This document shows, in pieces, positions 16,632 to 21,674 of a stretch of DNA of 27,047 nucleotides. Within the stretch, counting starts at the first letter, position 1; every line of letters begins with the position of its first letter. The position numbers and the translations under genes were made by a program. The notes under the pieces were generated by a model, which saw nothing but the letters and a program-made list of their open reading frames with translations, was not told the DNA's origin and made no database searches. Source of the stretch: a virus. The DNA lies in the IMG/VR virus record IMGVR_UViG_3300042146_000143, positions 1 to 27,047 of that record; one strand, given 5' to 3'.

Positions 16632-17428
16632 GAATTGATCCTTTGCTGCCGGGTGGTGGTGGCTTCCTGCAGTTTGGTGCTGCCCCGCACCCAGGCCCCG
16701 CACTTGTCGCAGCTGTACAGCCGGTAGCTGGTGACGTTGGCGAAGACCGTGCCGTCCCGGGTCAGCTTGGTCCCGCCGCAGGCCCAGCAGGAATGCTCGG
16801 CGCCGTCCATCTGGCCGATGTGCGGGACGTTGGTCAGCCACGGCAGCAGGTAGTGGTAGAGCTTCTCCGTCAGCCGCACGTCCTGCTTGGCGTACGTGGC
16901 CATCTTGGCCCAGGCTTTGTCATCGCCGGCCATGCACTTGACCCACAGCTCGAAGCCCTCGTGGGAGGTCTTCCGGCCCAGGCCCAGCTGCTGGGACAGG
17001 AAATCCAGCTTGTTGGATGCGAATTTGAATTGCCTCTTCGCGACCCTCATCAGGTCGATCTGCTTGTAGGGACGCGGCGGGTTCAGGCCCGCCAGCAGGA
17101 ACTCCCGCTGCATGTGCGGAATGTCGAAGGAGATCCCGTTGTAGGTGACCACGATGTCGGCCGCGGAGAGCAGCTCGTGGGCGGTGAGGATCATGTCCTC
17201 ATGGCCGCCGACATGGTCGGAGCGGAACCAGGTCTCCTTGTCGCCCAGCCATTTGTAGGCGAAGCCGAACACCTGCCCGGGGCGGATGATCTGGGACAGG
17301 CCCACGTTCTGGTCCCACAGGCCCCAGGTGTAGACCTCGTGCGGCATGGTCTCGATGTCAAAGAACAACACCCTGACGTTGTGCTTGGGCTTGGCCACCT
17401 TGCGGATGGCCGCTGCCAGCTCAGACAT
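16628..17428 (-). CDS. DEDDy 3'-5' exonuclease (RNase H-like) with zinc ribbon
   Basis: A 266-residue nuclease of the DnaQ/PolB exonuclease superfamily, removing nucleotides from DNA 3' ends. The start at 17428 is chosen because the ATG overlaps the previous gene's end by 8 bases. Motif I is FFDIET (Asp24, Glu26), motif II VVTYNGISFD (Asp102) and motif III YAKQD (Tyr179, Asp183), giving the full DEDDy set. The C-terminus adds a zinc ribbon: Cys214-x2-Cys217 and Cys240-x2-Cys243. It may act as a separate proofreading or end-processing enzyme. No polymerase gene is in the window, so its partner is unknown. Confidence 0.88.
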   Translation of the reverse strand: MSELAAAIRKVAKPKHNVRVLFFDIETMPHEVYTWGLWDQNVGLSQIIRPGQVFGFAYKWLGDKETWFRSDHVGGHEDMILTAHELLSAADIVVTYNGISFDIPHMQREFLLAGLNPPRPYKQIDLMRVAKRQFKFASNKLDFLSQQLGLGRKTSHEGFELWVKCMAGDDKAWAKMATYAKQDVRLTEKLYHYLLPWLTNVPHIGQMDGAEHSCWACGGTKLTRDGTVFANVTSYRLYSCDKCGAWVRGSTKLQEATTTRQQRINS

Positions 17429-17726
17429 CCAGGATCCGCCAGCTGGAGGCAATGGTCTCCACCGTGCGCTCCATCAGGACAGGCCAGTATTCCTCCGGGA
17501 TGCTCAGCTTCTCCAGCCACCTGCGCTTGTACACCAGCTCACTGCGGGCTTCGCTCTCGCTGTCGTAAAGAATGTCGTCAACCCTGCCGTCCGAGTAGGC
17601 GATGCCGTACTCCGTGGCGGTCCTCAGGACCGGCTTCGGCTTCTGTGAACCGTCCTTGGTGCCGTACTGCACCACCTGGTCGATCCAGATCTCGCCGTCC
17701 ACCTTGTTGCCGTACTGGTCACTCAC
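17421..17726 (-). CDS. Hypothetical protein
   Basis: A 101-residue acidic protein with a GTG start in a GTGA overlap with the previous stop. It has an alternating beta-like N-terminus (GEIWIDQVVQYG, then EYGIAYSDGRVDDIL) and a helical C-terminus with Trp, Arg and Glu. No recognised family. It immediately precedes, and overlaps, the exonuclease gene, so the two are translated together. Confidence 0.7.
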   Translation of the reverse strand: MSDQYGNKVDGEIWIDQVVQYGTKDGSQKPKPVLRTATEYGIAYSDGRVDDILYDSESEARSELVYKRRWLEKLSIPEEYWPVLMERTVETIASSWRILDV

Positions 17727-17968
17727 AGGGCCACCTTCCCCATCTTCAGCTTCTCCCTGAACGCCTGGACCTGCTTGCGGTCAATGTCGTAGCCCAGCTC
17801 GCGCAGGGCTGCCGCCACCTGCACATGCGGGTATCCGGCGGGGTCCTCGATGATCTTCCGGAACGTTTCCCGGTTGGCCTCCGTCATGCCGTCGTAGGCG
17901 GCGGCCACGGGGTTGTAGCGCCCCATCGGCGGGCCGATCAGGTCCGCCAGGTCAGTCACGGCGCTCAT
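17723..17968 (-). CDS. Hypothetical small protein, possible HTH-type fold
   Basis: An 81-residue protein from ATG 17968, which overlaps the preceding stop by 4 bases (ATGA). The longer reading to 18034 adds an out-of-frame Arg-rich leader and is rejected. The C-terminal half (HVQVAAALRELGYDIDRKQ, then VQAFREKLKMGK) could form a helix-turn-helix-like pair with basic residues. DNA binding is only a guess. Confidence 0.65.
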   Translation of the reverse strand: MSAVTDLADLIGPPMGRYNPVAAAYDGMTEANRETFRKIIEDPAGYPHVQVAAALRELGYDIDRKQVQAFREKLKMGKVAL

Positions 17969-18189
17969 TCGGACACCACCTTGTAGGCGCCCTTTGCGGC
18001 GATGATGCCGGCGGCCAGCTTGTCGCTGGTCCACGGCTCCAGGATGCCGCCCAGCGCCCAGCCCAGCTCACCCTCCAGGTCCCGGGTGCGGAACGCCGCG
18101 TTGATGGGGAGGCCGTCAGCCCCGATCAGCAGGACGGCGCTGCCCTCGGGGAGGTCGTGCAGTTCCTCGCTCAGTTCCACCTCGCTCAT
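17965..18189 (-). CDS. Hypothetical small acidic protein
   Basis: A 74-residue protein. Two ATGs are possible: 18195 and 18189. I chose 18189 because it gives the ATGA overlap used by most neighbours; the other adds two residues. The sequence is acidic at the N-terminus (SEVELSEELHDLPEG) with a hydrophobic Gly/Ala core (GELGWALGGIL). No known family is seen. Confidence 0.65.
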   Translation of the reverse strand: MSEVELSEELHDLPEGSAVLLIGADGLPINAAFRTRDLEGELGWALGGILEPWTSDKLAAGIIAAKGAYKVVSE

Positions 18190-18884
18190 TCCCATCCGTC
18201 CATTTCAAAGGGGTCCTGCCCGGGGATGACGTGGTCCAGGAGCATGCTCATGGCGATGGCCACCGGCTCCTCCAGGTCCTCCAGGGACCCGTCATTGAGG
18301 ATGGTGACCTGCTCACCGAGCAGGCCGATCATCTGCTCCGAGGCATGGACGTCGTCAGGGTGCTGGCTGGGCCGCGCGACCCGCCACACCGAAGAGCACT
18401 CCGCCACCAGCGCATGCCCCCACCCGTCGTAGACGCCGCCGTCGGACAGGTCGAAGATGAAGTCGGCCTCGTTCTCGAACCGGACGTCGGTGAAGACAAC
18501 GCGATCAGCGCCGGACTTCTCCAGCTCCCGGTGGGCCACCTTCACCCAGAAGTCCTCGTCCAGCTCGCGGATAACCTCGGTGCCGAAGCGCTGCCACAGC
18601 CGGCGGACCTCGTCCCCGAACAAGCACTTCTTGATCTCGGCCTCCGTCAGGCCCATCTCGTCGTACAGCTCGGAGAGGTTGATGGTGAGGAAGGTGCTGG
18701 TGCATTCCTCGCAGTCGCAGTACACGCCCTGGGACTCGTAGCCCACGATGGGATCCAGCGCCCGGACCATCCGCTTGATGGGGTCAGCGAAGGCCATCTT
18801 GGTGAAGCCGTAGTCCCGGACCAGGATGTCCGCGACGGCATCCTTCCCTGCTCCTCGATAGCCACTTAAACCAACGACAATCAA
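18186..18884 (-). CDS. Deoxynucleoside monophosphate kinase, 5' end rebuilt by HNH insertion
   Basis: Phosphorylates deoxynucleoside monophosphates for DNA synthesis. It is 232 residues from a TTG at 18884. P-loop GYRGAGKD lies at 8-15; RRLWQRFGTEVIRE (94-107) and VFTDVRFENEADF (130-142) are typical of phage dNMP kinases. Cys56, Cys58 and Cys61 (CDCEEC) may bind metal. The TTG has AAAGGGG 6 bases upstream and overlaps the HNH stop as TTGA. An in-frame reading continues to 18983, but that part is out-of-frame HNH coding. The first codons are AT-richer than the rest and recode the same residues (IVVGLSG) as a remnant start at 19451, so the native start was cut off by the HNH insertion. Confidence 0.86.
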   Translation of the reverse strand: MIVVGLSGYRGAGKDAVADILVRDYGFTKMAFADPIKRMVRALDPIVGYESQGVYCDCEECTSTFLTINLSELYDEMGLTEAEIKKCLFGDEVRRLWQRFGTEVIRELDEDFWVKVAHRELEKSGADRVVFTDVRFENEADFIFDLSDGGVYDGWGHALVAECSSVWRVARPSQHPDDVHASEQMIGLLGEQVTILNDGSLEDLEEPVAIAMSMLLDHVIPGQDPFEMDGWE

Positions 18885-19387
18885 GTAATTCCCCTTTGGT
18901 AGTTTTCGAGATAGGCGATCAACTCTCGCAATCGCTCGACGCTTTCTTGCACTAATCCCAGGGTTAGGTTGCAGCTTTGGCACAGGAGGCCCCGGACCTC
19001 CCCCGTCTCGTGGTCGTGGTCAACAGCCAAGTTATTTCGCAGCGTCTCCGGCCGCTTGCATGCGGCGCAGACCCCGCCCTGCTCAGCAAATTTGGTGTCG
19101 TACCACTCGGCAGTGACCCCATACTTCCGCTTCAGCTTCACGTTCCTGTCAGATGCCGCCACGCGCTCCGGGTACTTGTCCTTATAGCGCTTCGTATAGG
19201 TGCGCTGCCGGCCCGCATCGTGGGTGCGGTGCCTGCTCTGCTTCCTTGATTCAAGGGTGCAGGGCTTGCATCCAGAGGTGAGACCGGTTGGAGTCCTTGG
19301 GTCCGCGTAGAACTCATCCACAGGCTTCCATTGCCTGCATTTGCCGCACTGCTTCTTGCCGTCTATAATTACCGATGCCTTAGCCAT
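18881..19387 (-). CDS. HNH endonuclease (endonuclease VII-like), homing type
   Basis: A 168-residue free-standing HNH nuclease, probably a homing endonuclease. The N-terminus has paired CxxC (Cys14/17 and Cys40/43) like a zinc ribbon, followed by a basic linker. The catalytic part is of the recombination endonuclease VII type: Cys107/110, then VDHDHETGEVRG (122-133), then Cys136-x2-Cys139-Asn140. The final helix (ERLRELIAYLENY) closes the fold. Its ATG (19387) overlaps the TAA of a 23-codon remnant ORF; the ribosome site is weak, so it probably depends on coupling. The last 100 bases are AT-richer than the surroundings. The stop overlaps the rebuilt kinase TTG. It is embedded in the kinase 5' end. 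Confidence 0.92.
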   Translation of the reverse strand: MAKASVIIDGKKQCGKCRQWKPVDEFYADPRTPTGLTSGCKPCTLESRKQSRHRTHDAGRQRTYTKRYKDKYPERVAASDRNVKLKRKYGVTAEWYDTKFAEQGGVCAACKRPETLRNNLAVDHDHETGEVRGLLCQSCNLTLGLVQESVERLRELIAYLENYQRGIT

Positions 19388-19451
19388 GCACGGAGATTAA
19401 TCCCAACCCGTGACAAATTGAATAGCCGCCGCTCAGGCCAACAACGATCAT
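19380..19451 (-). pseudogene. Remnant 5' end of the kinase gene (23-residue leader ORF)
   Basis: Starts at ATG 19451, overlapping the upstream TGA as ATGA, the operon's usual junction. Codons 1-8 read M-I-V-V-G-L-S-G, identical to the first eight of the kinase at 18884 but with different synonymous codons (for example GGC-CTG-AGC against GGT-TTA-AGT). After codon 8 the match ends and 15 unrelated codons run to a TAA overlapping the HNH start. It is the original kinase start left by the HNH insertion, and may now be a leader that couples HNH translation. Confidence 0.85.
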
Positions 19452-19681
19452 TCCTTTGCCTCCCACTTGGCGCCTACGCCACTGTCATCGAAGTACACGG
19501 TGATGGTGCCCTTGCGGGGGTTGAAGCCCTCCCTGCGGGCCCTGTCGATGGCCAGGCGGGTGGCGTACTTGACCCCGTCGTTCAGGTCCTTGGTCTGCAT
19601 GTAGGCATGGAAGGCCGGCTGCCCTGGCAGGTTGTCGTAGTTGTGGAAGGGGACTCCCGTGGGAAGGCCTGGGTCTTTCAT
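19448..19681 (-). CDS. Hypothetical protein
   Basis: A 77-residue protein with ATG in a four-base overlap with the previous stop. It contains YMQTKDLNDGVKYATRLAID and a C-terminal beta segment (GTITVYFDDSGVG). No recognised family. Its stop overlaps the original kinase start at 19451, showing it was once directly followed by the kinase gene. Confidence 0.7.
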   Translation of the reverse strand: MKDPGLPTGVPFHNYDNLPGQPAFHAYMQTKDLNDGVKYATRLAIDRARREGFNPRKGTITVYFDDSGVGAKWEAKE

Positions 19682-19935
19682 TCTGACTCCATGTCGTAAT
19701 CGCTGATGTGGAGGACTCTGCCGTGGCTCAGCTTGGCTGACCGGTACAGGGTGTGGAAGAGGTTGGCGCTGCCGGTCCTGATGGCACCGCTGGTGACGTA
19801 GGCGTTGCGGAACCGCAGCCCCTCCAGGGCCAGCAGGTTCATGCAGTCCCGGACGTCGCCGGCAGGGAACCAGTCGAAGTTCTTGGGATCCTCATTTGCG
19901 CCGATAATGAGAAGATCCCAGCCCGGCTTTGTCAC
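19678..19935 (-). CDS. Hypothetical protein
   Basis: An 85-residue protein starting with GTG (19935) in a GTGA overlap with the preceding small gene. It has a beta-alpha look: WDLLIIGAN near 6-14, an acidic DVRDCMNLLALEG helix near 27-39 and a GRVLHISDYD strand near the end. No known motif; function unknown. Confidence 0.7.
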   Translation of the reverse strand: MTKPGWDLLIIGANEDPKNFDWFPAGDVRDCMNLLALEGLRFRNAYVTSGAIRTGSANLFHTLYRSAKLSHGRVLHISDYDMESE

Positions 19936-20084
19936 GGCGCACCGCCCCAGAGCGGCTGCGCCATCCTGCGCCAGTCAACATCGGCAGGTGGGGCTCCAAG
20001 GATGAACCGCTGCGGCGTGAGCAGGAACCTGCGGATAATGGCCTGCTCCCTGAGCACCTTCTTGCGGATAACGGCGTTGCGCAT
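19932..20084 (-). CDS. Small basic protein (50 residues)
   Basis: A short gene filling what would otherwise be a gap of about 150 bases. ATG 20084 overlaps the upstream TAA by one base (TAATG) and its TGA overlaps the next GTG by four bases, so it fits the operon's junction pattern at both ends. The N-terminus is basic and helical (VIRKKVLREQAIIRRFLL) and the C-terminus has Trp and Pro (DWRRMAQPLWGGAP). Function unknown; binding to nucleic acid or a partner protein is possible. Confidence 0.68.
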   Translation of the reverse strand: MRNAVIRKKVLREQAIIRRFLLTPQRFILGAPPADVDWRRMAQPLWGGAP

Positions 20085-20593
20085 TACTCGTCGTCCAGCT
20101 CGTCGTTGATGGGACCGAACTCGCCGCGTGCCAGGGGCAGTGCGTCCTTGGGGCCCAGGGTCATCCGGTCCGTGGCCACGGAGACGGGCATGACCTTGAT
20201 GGGATACCTGTCGTCGTCCCAGCCCTTGGGGCCGCGGGCTGCATAGTGGGTGGGCTCGGCGACCTCCACCACCCGGCAGACCCGCCCCTTCTTGTACTGG
20301 CCGATGTCCACCAGCAGCCTGACGCTGTCTCCTACTTTCACCTTCGCCATCGCTTCCTCGCGCCGCTGCGCGTAGATCTCGGCGGCTATCTCAGCCGCCA
20401 CACCAAACTCATGGATGAGCTGGTTGCCGTTGTTGACCAGGTCGTGCATGGCCTTCATGGCCCGTGGCTTGAGCCACACCACCCTGCCGATGCCGGTGGG
20501 GATGTCGTTGACGTAGAGCACCACGATGAACCGCTGCGGGACCCTGGTGGCCAGCAGGTGCGCCTCGTAGGTGACCTTGATCCTGTCCCTCAC
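20084..20593 (-). CDS. Hypothetical protein with SH3/KOW-like C-terminal part
   Basis: A 169-residue protein with a GTG start in a GTGA overlap with the primase stop. Residues 1-80 have a beta-rich start (HLLATRVPQRFIVVLYV) followed by a helix. Residues 83-135 begin MAKVKVGDSVRLLVD and continue KGRVCRVVEV, like a KOW or SH3-type small barrel. The C-terminus is acidic (ELDDE). The internal Met at residue 82 could be a second start for the barrel alone. Function unknown. Confidence 0.68.
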   Translation of the reverse strand: MRDRIKVTYEAHLLATRVPQRFIVVLYVNDIPTGIGRVVWLKPRAMKAMHDLVNNGNQLIHEFGVAAEIAAEIYAQRREEAMAKVKVGDSVRLLVDIGQYKKGRVCRVVEVAEPTHYAARGPKGWDDDRYPIKVMPVSVATDRMTLGPKDALPLARGEFGPINDELDDE

Positions 20594-21252
20594 AGCCTCA
20601 CCGCCCCGAGGTAGTCACGCAGGGCCTCACGGCCGAACTCCGAGTAGTAGCTATTGCAGTCATGTCCCTCAGGGAGGAGCCGTACGTCCGGGCCGGGAAC
20701 CTTCTGTGCGATCTTGGCGGCGAACTTGCGCCCGGCCCCCTGGTCGTCGTTGTCTGCGCAGATGAGGACCGAGGTGTACCCCTCGAACAGCAGCTCGAAG
20801 TGGCTCTTCCAGGCCGAGGCCCCCGGGATCCCGACGGCGGGGATCCCGGCCTGGACCAGGGTGATGCAGTCCATCTCGCCCTCCGTGATGGCAATGGTTT
20901 CCTCGGACTCGAAGAACGCCGGTGTGTTGAAGATGGTCAGCTCCGTCTGGTGGTGCTGCCAGTACTTGGGCCCCTGCTCCCGCTGGGGCGGCCGGCGGAA
21001 CCGCAGCGCCACCGGCCCGTTGGGGGTGTTGTAGGGGATGGAGATCATCCCTTTGGCTTCCTCATCCAATACGGCGGGGCGCACGACGGCTCCCAGCTGG
21101 AACCGGTCGATGGTCTCCAGGCTGAAGTGCCGCTCCTGCATCAGATATGCGAGCAGCGGGGCGCCGTCCGGGCTTTTCAGCTGGTCGTTGTAGCTCAGCA
21201 CCCGCTCGATTAAAGATTGTTTCTCCGAATGCGATGGCACCGGCAAAGTCAA
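20590..21252 (-). CDS. DNA primase, TOPRIM catalytic part (frame-shifted from zinc part)
   Basis: DnaG-type primase core, making RNA primers at the replication fork. Residues 15-60 resemble the primase N-terminal core (YNDQLKSPDGAPLLAYLMQE, then SLETIDRFQLG). TOPRIM motifs are ITEGEMD (Glu124, Asp128) and ICADNDDQG (Asp167, Asp169). It lies one base out of frame with the zinc-finger part upstream. The only usual start is a TTG at 21252 with GAGGGAAGG just before it; the first 10 residues look like out-of-frame sequence. It may be made by independent initiation, or as a fusion through a +1 frameshift around 21215-21235, or the break may be a sequencing or mutational indel. Ends in a GTGA overlap. 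Confidence 0.82.
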   Translation of the reverse strand: MTLPVPSHSEKQSLIERVLSYNDQLKSPDGAPLLAYLMQERHFSLETIDRFQLGAVVRPAVLDEEAKGMISIPYNTPNGPVALRFRRPPQREQGPKYWQHHQTELTIFNTPAFFESEETIAITEGEMDCITLVQAGIPAVGIPGASAWKSHFELLFEGYTSVLICADNDDQGAGRKFAAKIAQKVPGPDVRLLPEGHDCNSYYSEFGREALRDYLGAVRL

Positions 21253-21484
21253 GGCCTTCCCTCAGCTGAATAAGATCCACCGCATCCCCACTGAAATCGC
21301 AAGCGAAACAATGAAGCCGGCCGGTGGTCCGGTTGACGGTGGCCGAGGGGGTCCTGTCCTCATGGCTCCCGGTGGGGCACTGGATCTTCACCCAGCCGCT
21401 GCCCCTGTCCGGGACAGCCCTGCCGCTGTAGTGCTCGACGACCTCGGCGATGTCGAACCGCTTATTGCTCGGGGGCGAACTCAC
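21062..21484 (-). CDS. DNA primase, CHC2 zinc-finger part
   Basis: N-terminal DnaG-type zinc-binding domain that recognises the template for priming. The GTG start at 21484 overlaps the previous gene by 23 bases. A CHC2 motif is clear: Cys36, His41, Cys59 and Cys62 (CPTGSHEDRTPS, then LHCFACDFSGDAVD). The primase-like reading runs to about residue 88 (EGLDFAGAIAFGE). After that this frame turns into Ala/Arg/Pro/Gly-rich sequence ending at 21062, while the matching primase core carries on in the next frame. So only about 88 residues here look functional, and the full enzyme needs the downstream ORF. Confidence 0.78.
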   Translation of the reverse strand: MSSPPSNKRFDIAEVVEHYSGRAVPDRGSGWVKIQCPTGSHEDRTPSATVNRTTGRLHCFACDFSGDAVDLIQLREGLDFAGAIAFGETIFNRAGAELQRPAEKPGRRPAARISDAGAALQPGDHRPVPAGSRRAPRRIG

Positions 21485-21674
21485 CCAGGTAACCGTTCTC
21501 TTGGATGTTCTCCATGAGCCGGAAGTACAGGCCGGAGATCTCCTCGACCACGGGCTCGGGCGGGTTGCCCAGCGCTGTCTTGTACTCCTGGGCGATGTTG
21601 ATCAGCTCGACCAGCTTCCGCATCTCAGCGATGGAGAGGGTGACCTGCACCGTCAGTTCAGAGAAGTCGATCAC
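21462..21674 (-). CDS. Hypothetical acidic protein
   Basis: A 70-residue protein from GTG 21674, which overlaps the preceding stop (GTGA) and has GGAGGAG 3-9 bases upstream. A longer reading to 21713 would add 13 out-of-frame residues. It begins with a beta segment (FSELTVQVTLS), then two helices (EMRKLVELINIAQEYK and VEEISGLYFRLMENIQ). It looks like a small helical protein; function unknown. Confidence 0.66.
   Translation of the reverse strand: MIDFSELTVQVTLSIAEMRKLVELINIAQEYKTALGNPPEPVVEEISGLYFRLMENIQENGYLGEFAPEQ

Follow-up and report, generated by a model that had tools for sequence, protein, structure and literature searches.

The window, i.e., the whole stretch of 27,047 nucleotides analysed here, is a 27 kb IMG/VR virus record in which the larger tail-side open reading frames occupy the plus strand, while the minus strand encodes a primase, small genes, an HNH endonuclease gene, a dNMP kinase, and the exonuclease subunit of a DNA polymerase. 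A phage collection searched with the DNA of the window contained no similar record. Between a gene termed up1 and the kinase, the minus strand is organized as a series of coding overlaps (Table 1). The TGA of up1 overlaps the ATG at 19451 of a leader ORF (ATGA), with GGGAGG at 19464-19459 upstream of this start, the leader TAA overlaps the start of the HNH gene (ATGGCTAA), and the HNH TGA overlaps the kinase TTG at 18884 (TTGA), which is preceded, after a gap of 6 nt, by the AAAGGGG contained in the HNH 3' end.

Table 1. Features of the minus strand around the HNH gene, in positions of the window.
Feature	Position	Strand	Basis
up1 (upstream gene), 77 aa, function unassigned	19448..19681	-	ORF list; conserved in syntenic relatives
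Leader ORF, 23 codons: apparent old kinase start, then unrelated sequence, end overlapping HNH start	19380..19451	-	sequence
First (ATG) copy of the eight kinase start codons, old/native-like	19428..19451	-	16/24 to 18/24 identity to HNH-free relatives
Endo VII-like HNH endonuclease gene, 168 aa	18881..19387	-	PF02945, PHROG 2633, motif
AAAGGGG, likely kinase ribosome-binding site within HNH 3' end	18891..18897	-	sequence; putative function
dNMP kinase gene, 232 aa, TTG start, intact	18186..18884	-	PHROG 139 (1.4e-39), Pfam DNMK, alignment to relatives
Kinase codons 1-15, foreign-looking replacement start and P-loop region	18840..18884	-	GC3 break

The translation of the leader is MIVVGLSGGYSICHGLGLISVHG, which opens with MIVVGLSGGYS and ends at the TAA, and that of the kinase is the TTG codon followed by IVVGLSGYRGAGKD; the first eight residues, start included, are common to both. 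The upstream copy reads ATGATCGTTGTTGGCCTGAGCGGC and the downstream copy (18884-18861) reads TTGATTGTCGTTGGTTTAAGTGGC, the 24 bases being identical at 17 positions and different at seven. The AT-rich sequence at the present TTG start is TTGATTGTCGTTGGTTTAAGT, and the ATG-type start, considered as joined to up1, has the sequence ATGATCGTTGTTGGC. Apart from the start codon, which also differs, five of the seven sense codons have changed through six base substitutions, and all six are synonymous, an outcome with a probability of about 0.001 if one copy had drifted neutrally. Exclusively synonymous changes after the start codon are what would be expected of two sequences that diverged while each belonged to a working kinase and that came to lie side by side later, which is the simpler interpretation. 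An earlier note on this DNA had described a duplicated kinase start around a complete HNH gene, with silent changes except in the start codon, as well as three coupled junctions (ATGGCTAA, TTGA, and the AAAGGGG in the HNH end), and both descriptions are confirmed in the sequence.

The HNH gene is intact, and its product matches Pfam Endonuclease_7 (PF02945) with an E value of 1.4e-24 and PHROG 2633 with 2.4e-39. The catalytic motif CX2C-DHDH-R-CX2C-N (DHHRN), present as CAACKRPETLRNNLAVDHDHETGEVRGLLCQSCN, occupies residues 107-140 of 168 and is thus C-terminal, a placement shared with the endonuclease clade and not with the resolvase clade; the solved structures of Hpy99I and T4 Endo VII match the motif part only. 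With these motif features, the protein is a putative free-standing homing endonuclease of the Endo VII (DHHRN) type, predicted to cut and to home, and it probably targets the 5' end of the adjoining kinase gene. Membership of the WHO/HO intein-zinc-finger family was rejected, the protein belonging to the Endo VII family. A group I or group II intron was rejected as well, no Rfam match being obtained up to E 1 in 17000-21500, and it is also disfavoured because the 507-base HNH gene accounts for almost the whole distance of about 570 bases that separates the copies. An intein was discarded in view of the different frames of HNH and kinase and of the stops between them. Moreover, RNA structure at both starts was no better than in shuffled sequences (z -0.9 and 0.3).

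The two copies differ in codon usage. The GC3 of the kinase is 0.31 in codons 2-14 versus 0.92 in the remainder, and the best change points lie at codons 12-16, with none of 2000 permutations equalling the best. Over codons 2-15, GC3 is 0.29 in the window versus 0.64-0.71 in six HNH-free syntenic relatives, while the leader copy has a GC3 of 0.60 across the 10 codons that follow its start, and the HNH gene, at 0.72, stays below its neighbours (0.84-0.91). AT-rich gene starts are common and, thus, part of the dip in the kinase is normal. The kinase of one relative (L356) has an ATG start, ATGATCGTTATTGGCCTC, which resembles the leader. Given the low GC3 of the TTG copy, the high values in relatives, the 0.60 of the leader, and its resemblance to L356, the TTG copy, as far as roughly the end of the P-loop, appears to belong to an incoming segment, and the ATG copy has a native appearance. 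The SGGYS of the leader had no matching P-loop spelling among the kinases compared, and no donor with the HNH gene beside a TTG kinase was found.

Close relatives were located via the exonuclease, the scan with the kinase as a single protein yielding only relatives at about 30%. Eight syntenic contigs share the order primase, up3, small genes, up1, and then the kinase or another gene, and several of them reach the exonuclease. The kinase of the window is intact and 48-53% identical to those of HNH-free relatives, and the present HNH gene is absent from all eight contigs. One small gene or more separates up1 from the intact kinase wherever the latter is seen, and other small genes follow up1 in nearly all eight. 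An exact empty site for the kinase was not found among these relatives, none of which is close enough. Kinase TTG starts overlapping an upstream TGA occur without HNH in L258, L219, L355, and L358, and in several syntenic relatives the TTG or GTG of the kinase overlaps the preceding stop; therefore, the insertion did not create the TTG start. Thus, the interpretation in the earlier note stands in part. Its proposal that the HNH gene came with a foreign kinase start is supported by the GC3 break, by codon use unlike that of HNH-free relatives, and by the second case described below; the HNH-free arrangement that it predicted, with up1 joined directly by ATGA to an intact kinase, occurs in none of the eight syntenic relatives examined, and TTG starts are also present in the four HNH-free kinases named above.

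Two of the syntenic relatives deserve mention for their contents at this position. In L216 (4097-4300), a kinase match without the first 26 or so residues, P-loop included, is located shortly after up1, and this shortened kinase is possibly a scar at the same site. In L438 (3200-3657), a different HNH gene (HNH_3, PF13392) directly follows up1 and, therefore, the interval between up1 and the kinase attracts unrelated HNH genes.

A second case was found in another gene, namely the tail-tube gene (Pfam PF25595) of IMG/VR 3300036832_000756 (L099), where an Endo VII HNH gene opens with MARIIPNE as an in-frame fusion to the native tail-tube start and the full-length tail-tube gene restarts downstream as ATGGCACGCATCATTCCCAACGAA, silently different. 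The native junction in about 60 HNH-free relatives is GGAAGGCTGACCG-ATGGC or close to it, with codons that are mostly ATC ATC CCG. The upstream copy of L099 retains this junction and these codons, and the downstream copy carries ATT CCC and GAA. The nucleases of the present locus and of L099 are 43% identical over 110 residues and reside in unrelated genes and, therefore, they represent independent insertions. A more closely related HNH (52%) occurs in L270 as an ordinary, free-standing gene placed immediately in front of this tail gene, which is the form expected of a donor. Its start, MDKLAIPKDE, has ATCCCGAA in common with the tail gene, which suggests that the left junction of L099 may have formed at this short match.

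Non-Endo VII HNH genes (phrog_1271-like) are situated between up99 and the tail tube gene in L153 (1430-1952) and L184 (1434-1952), and the tail gene of L184 opens with TTG and has a heavily rewritten start. At codon 6 of the tail-tube gene, CCG is present in none of the four HNH-linked sequences versus 32 of the 43 HNH-free ones (Fisher p 0.008, with no correction for positions or phylogeny); this allele association is the sole hint, and a weak one, of resistance to a linked nuclease. The downstream start of L099 also matches its close relative L153 and, thus, phylogeny may explain the pattern in L099.

How often such structures occur was surveyed across 105 HNH loci drawn from publicly available viral contigs and from phage genomes, with L099 entered as L149, by comparing the start of the gene after each HNH gene with every start upstream of it. 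The shared prefix comprises eight residues in the present locus and in L099 alone and four or fewer in all the other loci, and among about 10,900 cross-locus pairs, prefixes of at least six residues were confined to pairs from one locus and pairs of homologous tail genes. The shared eight-residue start is, hence, well above chance. The succession of old start, HNH gene, and new start is rare (two of about 105 loci), each instance being known from a single metagenome contig. An unrestricted scan for duplicated peptides near HNH genes was swamped by noise and gave no further case except the tandem HNH of L350, an Arthrobacter humicola contig in which two Endo VII catalytic domains lie close together. 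In L246, three Endo VII-like ORFs are grouped within 10.7 kb of one phage contig. The Endo VII gene abutting DNA polymerase I in Kaylissa (L148) was rejected as a further case, as it has no duplicated start, and the annotated Endo VII genes of T7-like phages and cyanophages (L261-L268) are located between intact genes, the survey with these loci giving no further start duplication.

The present locus is likely to result from the homing of a free-standing endonuclease, by which the 5' end of the target gene was exchanged and the old 5' end of the recipient stayed behind upstream. In the donor, the HNH gene would have been located directly upstream of a diverged kinase whose ribosome site lay within the HNH 3' end. 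On the right side, recombination would have taken place inside the recipient kinase, near codons 12-16, so that this kinase gained about the first 15 codons of the donor and stayed intact; on the left side, the cut old kinase start of the recipient (about 8-11 codons) would have been joined to the sequence just upstream of the HNH gene. The HNH gene would then be read from the old start, or be translationally coupled to it, and the kinase would be read from the ribosome site in the HNH gene, with a new start that presumably resists the enzyme.

The opposite polarity, in which the native kinase is the one with the TTG start and the ATG copy represents a kinase-start fragment of another phage, brought with or before the HNH gene by illegitimate recombination, appears unlikely. 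Stop-overlapping TTG starts are indeed common in HNH-free relatives, and these carry other genes after up1, as this explanation would have it; nevertheless, the codon-use break affects the TTG copy and not the ATG copy, the latter directly follows up1 with a good Shine-Dalgarno sequence, and in L099 it is clearly the upstream copy that is native. Chimeric assembly of HNH-carrying and HNH-free strains, which the single metagenome contigs behind both cases could suggest, is very unlikely, since the copies have short exact words in common and no overlap of assembly length, the coding overlaps ATGA, ATGGCTAA, and TTGA follow each other in order, and the same structure with intact genes recurs on two different contigs.

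The least probable explanation is that insertion of the HNH gene caused a target-site duplication of the kinase start, the copies of which diverged later. It would account for the 24-27 bases duplicated in both cases, but every change after the start is synonymous even though the kinase does not depend on the leader for its coding sequence (p about 0.001 under one-sided drift); moreover, the GC3 change runs beyond the duplicated bases, to about codon 14.

More tentatively, phages might carry natural cleave-and-rescue elements, in which a nuclease is placed upstream of an essential gene together with a silently rewritten, cut-resistant 5' end and is translated from the old start of the recipient. 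The present locus would show how a free-standing homing endonuclease can settle at the beginning of a needed gene and leave it functional, because it supplies a silently different start. The scar, consisting of old start, nuclease, and new start, would mark the target, the junction, and the direction of transfer and would make the targets of uncharacterised phage HNH genes predictable, and the element would be a natural counterpart to gene drives with recoded rescue.

Among known systems, F-CphI is an Endo VII-motif homing endonuclease (PMC6083498) that resembles the present protein in its C-terminal catalytic motif, similar size, and free-standing nature; the identity to F-CphI and the DHHRN homing endonucleases is 38% over 93% of the query. 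However, F-CphI is located near psbA, where an intron prevents self-cleavage (PMC6083498), whereas the present locus has no Rfam intron. The free-standing homing endonuclease genes of T4 and the gene-splitting insertions of T4 MobA and Aeh1 MobE (PMC2988022) also place HNH genes within or beside essential genes with translational overlaps, but these insertions split a gene into two needed parts, whereas the kinase gene downstream of the present HNH is complete. Synthetic home-and-rescue gene drives likewise link a nuclease to a rescue copy of its target (PMC7968924), although they are engineered and CRISPR-based, while recoding for resistance is presumed here. The open-access literature, as far as its incomplete coverage extends, yielded no report of a phage nuclease preceded by the old start of a gene and followed by a silently altered one.

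A further parallel is provided by the yeast WHO elements, in which the target end (the 3' end of FBA1) is replaced by a resistant version and the old end is left beside the element (PMC7282813). As in WHO, the endonuclease gene adjoins its target, a diverged end appears to have replaced the original one, as the silent differences and the GC3 break suggest, and the old end of the recipient, here the leader at 19451-19428, is left as a fragment beside the nuclease, the native junction being seen directly in L099 only. Cleavage resistance has been demonstrated for WHO (PMC7282813), whereas we infer it at the present locus. Moreover, WHO elements act at the 3' end and leave fragments of about 400 bp that serve as homology (PMC7282813), whereas the present locus belongs to a phage and combines an unrelated nuclease with a change at the 5' end and a remnant 8-11 codons long. 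Thus, by analogy, the present locus could be regarded as a 5' mirror of the WHO plan, which would work like a WHO element and is not one.
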